From assembly GCA_021850485.1 (NCBI GenBank), contig JAJZLY010000005.1, forward strand, positions 37,139 through 101,138: a stretch of 64,000 nucleotides of DNA. The letters are read 5' to 3'. The notes under the pieces were generated by a model, which saw only the letters and a list, made by a program, of their open reading frames with translations, searched no databases and was not told where the DNA came from. The DNA is from Bacillota bacterium. Lineage in GTDB: Bacteria > Bacillota > Sulfobacillia > JAJZYS01 > JAJZLH01. Of this stretch, positions 14,791 to 54,366 are shown in pieces. Within the stretch, counting starts at the first letter, position 1. The number at the start of each line of letters is the position of its first letter. A program made the position numbers and the translations under genes.

Positions 14791-15258
14791 TCAGCCTTGC
14801 AAGGCGGCTAGAACTTGTGCCATCGGCGGCTGGTCGGTCGCATCCTTCAGCCACTGGTAGATGAGCCGACTGTCTGGCCCGAAGACGAACACGGCTCGAT
14901 TCGAAACATTCAAGATGCCCGCCACCTCGGGCAGCAGCACGCCGAAGGCCGCTGCCGCCTGACGGTTCGGGTCTGCGAGCAAAGGGTAGGCCAGCGCGTT
15001 TTGGGTGGCGAAGGCCTGTTGCACGAACTGGCTATCGATGCTGATGGCGTACACTTCGGCACTTTGGGCTTGGATCTGATCCAGCACCTGCTGAACCGCA
15101 CTCAACTCGCGCAGTCAGCCGCCGGTGAAGGCCAGGTGGTAGAAGACGACAACCAGACGGTGCGCCGCCGCTCGCTCGGCCAAGTTCACCGTGGGCCCGG
15201 CTCCAGACACCAGCTGGACCTCGGGGCAGGGAGCGCCAACTGTAAGTCCTGTGGACAT
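14791..15258 (-). CDS. Peroxiredoxin with in-frame TGA at the catalytic Cys (candidate selenoprotein)
   Basis: Read through one in-frame TGA (15115-15117), this is a complete 155-residue AhpC/TSA peroxiredoxin of the AhpE/BCP type, reducing peroxides in the cytoplasm. The family normally reads LAFTxxCTxEL; here it is LAFTGG-TGA-LREL, so the TGA replaces the peroxidatic Cys (codon 48). Conserved sequence runs on both sides: FYHLAFTGG before, then ISIDSQFVQQAF, YPLLADPNR, FGVLLPEVAG and RAVFVFGPD. A SECIS-like hairpin follows the TGA. No other Cys remains except Cys 15, so it would be 1-Cys (1-Sec) type. ATG 15258 has GGAGGGG six bases upstream. The alternative is a point mutation of TGC or TGT making a pseudogene. 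The Sec biosynthesis genes are not in this window. Confidence 0.72.
15080..15095 (-). promoter_or_regulatory. SECIS-like hairpin downstream of TGA codon
   Basis: On the minus strand, TTCAGC-AGGT-GCTGGA forms a six-pair stem (one G-U) with a four-base loop AGGT. The loop begins 25 bases after the TGA. Bacterial SECIS elements are short stems within the coding region, roughly 16-37 bases past the UGA, with a G in the first two loop bases; this fits. Confidence 0.55.
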
Positions 15259-15335
15259 CTGCACCCCTCCGATCGGAGCCCAAGAGACACCACTCATTGT
15301 ACGTCTTGGCCGCCGTCTGTGGGCCGATGAGTCGC

Positions 15336-35850: not shown

Positions 35851-35969
35851 CTCTTATCAAGAGAGGCAGAGGGAAACGGCCCGATGAAGCCCGACAACCG
35901 ACCCGATCACTTGTGATCGGGAAGCGGTGCCAATTCCGGCGCCCCGTCAGGGAGCGCGAGATGAGAGGA
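35851..35969 (+). promoter_or_regulatory. SAM-I (S-box) riboswitch
   Basis: Conserved S-box elements in order: CTCTTATCAAGAGAGGCAGA closing P1, GGCCCGATGAAGCCCGACAACC, a GATCACTTGTGATC hairpin, GGTGCCAATTCC, then GCGAGATGAGAG. SAM binding should favour the terminator that follows and shut off metY-metX when methionine supply is high. Confidence 0.96.
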
Positions 35970-54042: not shown

Positions 54043-54366
54043 ATGGCGGAGGTCATGCCGGTAGCCGATGGCGACTTCGATCAGCAGGTGCTGAAGAGTG
54101 CCCAGCCAGTGTTGGTCGACTTCTGGGCCGAGTGGTGCGGACCGTGCCGGATGGTGGCGCCGGTGGTGCAGGAGCTCGCAGGCGAGCTTTCCGGCAAGCT
54201 GAAGGTGCTGAAAATGAACGTCGATGAGAATCCGGAGACAGCGGCCCGCTATCAGGTGATGAGCATCCCCACGCTGGCCGTGTTCAAGGGCGGCCAGTTG
54301 CAGGAGAAATTGATCGGCTATCGGCCCAAGGCGCAGCTGGCCGAAGAGGTCGGCCGCTCGCTGTAG
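54043..54366 (+). CDS. trxA: Thioredoxin
   Basis: 107 residues. Active site WAEWCGPCRM (Cys pair near 32 and 35) and cis-Pro in MSIPTLAVFKGG. Cytoplasmic disulfide reductase; it could reduce the peroxiredoxin at 14791-15258 (inference). GGGGGCGGGC lies before the ATG. Confidence 0.97.
   Translation: MAEVMPVADGDFDQQVLKSAQPVLVDFWAEWCGPCRMVAPVVQELAGELSGKLKVLKMNVDENPETAARYQVMSIPTLAVFKGGQLQEKLIGYRPKAQLAEEVGRSL

Follow-up and report, generated by a model that had tools for sequence, protein, structure and literature searches.

Does the TGA at 15115–15117, on the minus strand of the 64,000-nucleotide stretch of Bacillota DNA analysed here (the window), end one protein and precede another, or does it specify an amino acid in the middle of a single one? 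The preliminary description took the second view, and read the codon as selenocysteine (Sec) at the catalytic position of a peroxiredoxin. The evidence assembled below supports that reading: the genome encodes a Sec apparatus, and the same TGA recurs in three other species. We put at roughly 95% the probability that this is a functional selenoprotein gene, in which UGA at codon 48 is decoded as Sec to yield a one-domain peroxiredoxin of a Sec-only clade with His in place of the active-site Pro.

The reading frame

The coding sequence (14791–15258, minus strand) specifies 155 residues, the one at codon 48 being Sec, and ends in a TGA terminator at 14791–14793; its 156 codons include only one internal TGA. 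The ATG at 15256–15258 is favored as the start over an upstream ATG at 15297 because a Shine-Dalgarno-like sequence, GGAGGGG (15264–15270, minus strand), lies 5 nt ahead of it. The orthologue in genome G055 is preceded by GGAGGG in much the same position. Scans for promoters and terminators around the peroxiredoxin gene found none.

Read without recoding, the same DNA falls apart, as had been predicted for automatic annotation: conventional ORF calling yields a 60-aa ORF (15115–15297) and a TTG-started ORF of 104 aa (14791–15105), both on the minus strand. It could be argued that these are real—a short N-terminal protein, and a C-terminal one initiated at TTG 15103–15105—and a standard gene caller would indeed list both. 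Neither part retains the whole peroxiredoxin fold, however, and the sequence around the TGA, FYHLAFTxGU, is nearly invariant in four orthologues, the window's included, something that only a fused product explains. Two separate proteins are, to our minds, scarcely credible. What we have instead is a selenoprotein gene with good support, and one that would be cut in two or lost in standard annotation.

Family, fold and active site

With Sec48 entered as Cys in the protein programs, the translation scores well above the Pfam gathering thresholds for AhpC-TSA (PF00578; 90.2 versus 26 bits) and Redoxin (54.9 versus 26.6 bits). In alignments with two solved homologues, 2cx3 from Aeropyrum pernix and 2ywn from Sulfolobus tokodaii, codon 48 falls on the peroxidatic Cys, exactly where the preliminary description had placed it. 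An AlphaFold model built from a ten-sequence alignment (mean pLDDT 92.1, pTM 0.89) predicts a helix at residues 46–57, the first long one, with the catalytic residue at its start, and the best solved fold matches of this model are Bcp4 (Foldseek E 5e-16), AhpE and PrxQ. The protein belongs to the peroxiredoxin superfamily, then, by its gathering score, by its predicted fold, and by its active-site residues Thr45 of the TxxU motif (ACC, 15124–15126), Sec48, and the conserved peroxiredoxin Arg121 (CGA, 14896–14898; all minus strand), which are present in all four orthologues.

Finer classification is another matter. None of the NCBIfam equivalog cut-offs is reached—34 bits versus 270 for PrxU (NF040737), 49 versus 272 for AhpC (TIGR03137), and 49 versus 140 for BCP (NF006960)—and so the protein is not filed as AhpC, BCP/PrxQ, PrxU or Tpx. 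The earlier label, 'AhpE/BCP-type', is apt as a statement of which folds lie closest, but not as a family assignment.

The preliminary description also overlooked a substitution in the active site itself. Codon 41 (CAC, 15136–15138, minus strand) is His, where the PxxxTxxU/C motif has Pro, and the Pro of PxxxT/SxxC is absent from all four orthologues, each of which has His41. The full PxxxTxxU motif is thus lacking, and the window protein reads HxxxTxxU. Such a protein can still work like a PxxxTxxU selenocysteine peroxiredoxin. Elsewhere in the phylum, another Sec peroxiredoxin (L083; G396:C84) has Ile where the motif calls for Pro (YIKDNTPGU). This indicates that the motif Pro is not strictly universal, and that its loss may have happened more than once among Sec forms.

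A genome equipped for selenocysteine

The host genome is a draft of 1.61 Mb, 97.2% complete. The preliminary description proposed that it be searched for selA, selB, selD and tRNA-Sec, and all four are present above their cut-offs: tRNA-Sec at 72.7 bits (gathering score 47; reported by ARAGORN, too, as tRNA-SeC with anticodon TCA), selB at 353 bits (curated cut-off 242), selA at 487 (268), and selD, which adjoins selA, at 348 (125). Two further genes on contig C20 of this genome contain in-frame TGA codons: selD itself (L048), in SNKSGUGCK, and the formate dehydrogenase alpha gene, FdhA (L060), in NRTUHAPS. We take these to be the usual Sec positions of the two families, and standard annotation may truncate both genes. 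A second candidate selenoprotein of the same genome (L058; G000:C26, about 25.5–26.1 kb, minus strand) is a SelL-related redox protein of 153 aa, with an in-frame TGA in TUIAC (UxxC). In the class more widely, selA is above cut-off in 15 of the 16 genomes whose TxxU gene was read at its locus, and the one that lacks it is only 63% complete. The gene comes from a lineage rich in selenocysteine.

Might TGA be read as something other than Sec? In some bacteria, TGA read-through occurs without Sec, and one could suppose either that TGA is recoded throughout, to Trp or Gly, or that a near-cognate tRNA decodes it leakily. Codon usage in this host speaks against both. TGA terminates 30 of the 45 long ORFs in the window—an approximate figure, from a mechanical list of long, largely non-overlapping ORFs—and is the main stop codon there; the host therefore uses it as a normal terminator and has not recoded it globally; general recoding was rejected on this ground. 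The in-frame TGAs that we found, moreover, sit at redox-active positions of the peroxiredoxin, SelD and FdhA, and there are none in selA, selB or rng. We consider decoding as some other amino acid very improbable. Of the codon-48 TGA itself, we infer that it is translated as Sec.

The same TGA in four species

Searches of 154 genomes of the class and 398 of the phylum bear on the question from another side. Two orthologues from the same genus (G055 and G054; 66% and 59% identity to the window protein) and one from another family (G056; 54%) came from the class-wide search. Each has exactly one TGA, and in all three it occupies the codon-48 column, where the solved homologues have Cys. Two of these genomes match public records of 'Bacillota bacterium' MAGs (JAKAUI010000002.1 and JAJZYS010000029.1), and a scan of public contigs returned two orthologues already known, together with one distant Cys relative. 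Within the genus, gene order is kept: rng – prx – rplU – ysxB – rpmA – obgE. None of the neighbors rng, rplU, ysxB, rpmA and obgE was found beside the gene in G056, so the TGA persists in two different contexts.

Comparison of the window gene with each orthologue gives pN/pS ratios of 0.41–0.56 upstream of the TGA and 0.33–0.45 downstream of it. Ratios of this size indicate purifying selection on the protein both before and after the codon, in keeping with the conserved sequence that the preliminary description noted there.

These findings bear directly on the most mundane explanation, that a Cys codon, TGC or TGT, became TGA by mutation or by sequencing error, and that the remainder of the gene is decaying. 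A premature TGA is, after all, what a pseudogene most commonly looks like; the hairpin that follows it, taken alone, is not significant. But the same TGA is present in four species whose proteins are 54–66% identical to that of the window, with the frame kept; pN/pS is below 0.6 on both sides; and the host has a full Sec apparatus along with other selenoprotein genes. Sequencing error is very unlikely, too, because the three other species were assembled separately. The idea of a pseudogene or an error is, in effect, already refuted, and we give it almost no weight.

The downstream hairpin

If UGA is to be decoded as Sec, a SECIS element might be expected close by, and a candidate is present at 15078–15097 (minus strand). 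The preliminary description was right about its apical loop, AGGU (15086–15089), which begins 25 nt after the TGA, but not about its stem, for which six pairs were given and eight are found when G-U pairs are counted. Published limits for bacterial SECIS elements are a loop of 3–9 nt with G in one of the first two places, a stem of 4–16 bp, a spacing of 16–37 nt, and an energy of at most -7.5 kcal/mol (PMC13188914). The window hairpin lies within them, at -9.2 kcal/mol, though their specificity is weak. In all four species an AGGU loop occurs at exactly +25, on stems of 8, 8, 7 and 6 pairs, the core of the G056 hairpin, taken by itself (-6.3 kcal/mol), being weaker than the published energy limit.

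How much of this is forced by the peptide? When synonymous codons of the window gene are resampled, 9.5% of the outcomes have a hairpin at least as low in energy. With the peptide fixed, an AGGU loop at +25 with at least six pairs arises in 12% of resamplings for each member of the genus, and in 31% for G056; the joint chance for all four species is about 0.0005 if they are independent, although the sequences are related. One double compensatory change is present in the stem, from G-C to A-U (CAG/CTG to CAA/TTG), but pair counts in the covariation analysis, from four sequences only, are no higher than in shuffles. Since the peptide partly forces it, the hairpin is weak evidence by itself, and as stand-alone proof of Sec we rejected it, following the resampling and the pair counts. 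In the sequence comparisons, what carries weight is that the TGA and the position of the hairpin are conserved across species, not the hairpin alone.

A Sec-only clade

The four window-type proteins cluster together (SH-aLRT 98) in a tree built from 46 homologues. Two residues are invariant in, and specific to, this clade: His41, which is Pro in nearly all TxxC and TxxU homologues, and Cys11 (TGC, 15226–15228, minus strand), the only other Cys in the protein. No Cys form of the clade was found in the 154 class and 398 phylum genomes, nor was the HxxxTxxU coding pattern found in viral contigs. The TxxU label requires four changes on the tree, and this suggests repeated interchange between Sec and Cys forms; the deeper branching order is unsure because of long branches.

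Other peroxiredoxin-like proteins with unusual active sites turned up along the way. A distinct group in other genomes of the class (L025, L030, L032, L034 and L036) forms one supported branch of the tree and has UxxC instead (FYEGATUGAC), with Sec in the Thr column and Cys in the peroxidatic column. Another such protein (L057; G000:C2:174271–174531) has a long insert around its active site (YPRTGQPGQPLPTGWDSIAGARGCTPE).

A possible catalytic cycle

SelB and Sec-tRNA(Sec) would decode UGA 48, guided by the hairpin just downstream. From established peroxiredoxin chemistry, we infer that the product is a peroxidase. Thr45 and Arg121 would hold its Sec48 selenolate where the first long helix begins. 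From there the selenolate would attack H2O2 or organic hydroperoxides, become oxidized to the selenenic acid, and then be reduced back by a thiol. This thiol is probably supplied from outside, by thioredoxin or a low-molecular-weight compound, for example; less surely, Cys11 might act first. An ordinary Cys thioredoxin (WCGPC) is encoded in the window at 54043–54366 (plus strand), and is a possible reductant. A SAM riboswitch (RF00162, 74.6 bits) is also present, at 35851–35967 (plus strand).

What His41 does in the active site, and whether Cys11 is a resolving residue, are matters for guesswork. In the most elaborate version, the site of this Sec-only subfamily has been rebuilt: His41 helps directly to bind the substrate or to transfer protons, and Cys11 is the resolving residue, forming a selenylsulfide with Sec48. 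We think this unlikely. We know of no described class of peroxiredoxins with a resolving Cys at a position like that of Cys11. The replacement of Pro by His raises a question: does Sec relax the need for a near-universal active-site residue, or does His add something of its own?

Comparison with known selenocysteine peroxiredoxins

That some bacterial peroxiredoxins carry Sec at the peroxidatic place, as the preliminary description stated, is well documented. PrxU is the Sec peroxiredoxin of Eubacterium (Peptoclostridium) acidaminophilum (Sohling et al. 2001, as cited in PMC13188914), and like the window protein it has the AhpC/TSA fold with Sec at the peroxidatic position; the NCBIfam model for it, whose cut-off the window protein misses so widely, is longer (233 positions). 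A TxxU peroxiredoxin selenoprotein family (COG1225) was represented by 43 genes in the Sargasso Sea set (PMC1088965), and TxxU peroxiredoxins are listed among the selenoproteins of bacterial genomes, as well (PMC1794560, Table 1). The window gene shares with this family the TxxU motif, widespread Cys homologues, and a SECIS-like hairpin downstream. It differs in being HxxxTxxU, whereas the family's motif, PxxxTxxU, is called 'highly conserved' in a 2026 review (PMC13188914).

The closest solved proteins, in sequence and in fold, are Bcp4 of Sulfolobus solfataricus (3hjp) and the PrxQ of A. pernix (2cx3, 4gqf), the catalytic Cys column of 2cx3 matching Sec48. Both are sulfur enzymes that have the motif Pro, in contrast to the Sec and His41 of the window protein, and the A. 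pernix enzyme contains an additional Cys (SPWCLKKF), absent from the window protein. AhpE of Mycobacterium tuberculosis (1xvw, 4x1u), a one-Cys-type enzyme, has the same fold as the window model (TM about 0.87); it is a Cys enzyme, and 27–29% identical to the window protein. Nearer home, Sulfobacillus thermotolerans was reported to upregulate a Sec peroxiredoxin, there called PrxU, on ore (PMC7409299). This, too, is an annotated Sec peroxiredoxin of the Bacillota, from an acidophilic host under oxidative stress; it is likened to the window protein by description only, and at 178 aa in the published table, versus 155, it is the longer of the two (PMC7409299).

Sec peroxiredoxins of the TxxU kind have been known since 2001–2006, and in kind the window gene is ordinary; the general picture of selenoproteins is unchanged by it. 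What is new is modest: a clade of four species, with no Cys orthologue found, in which HxxxTxxU stands for PxxxTxxU and a second residue, Cys11, is invariant.
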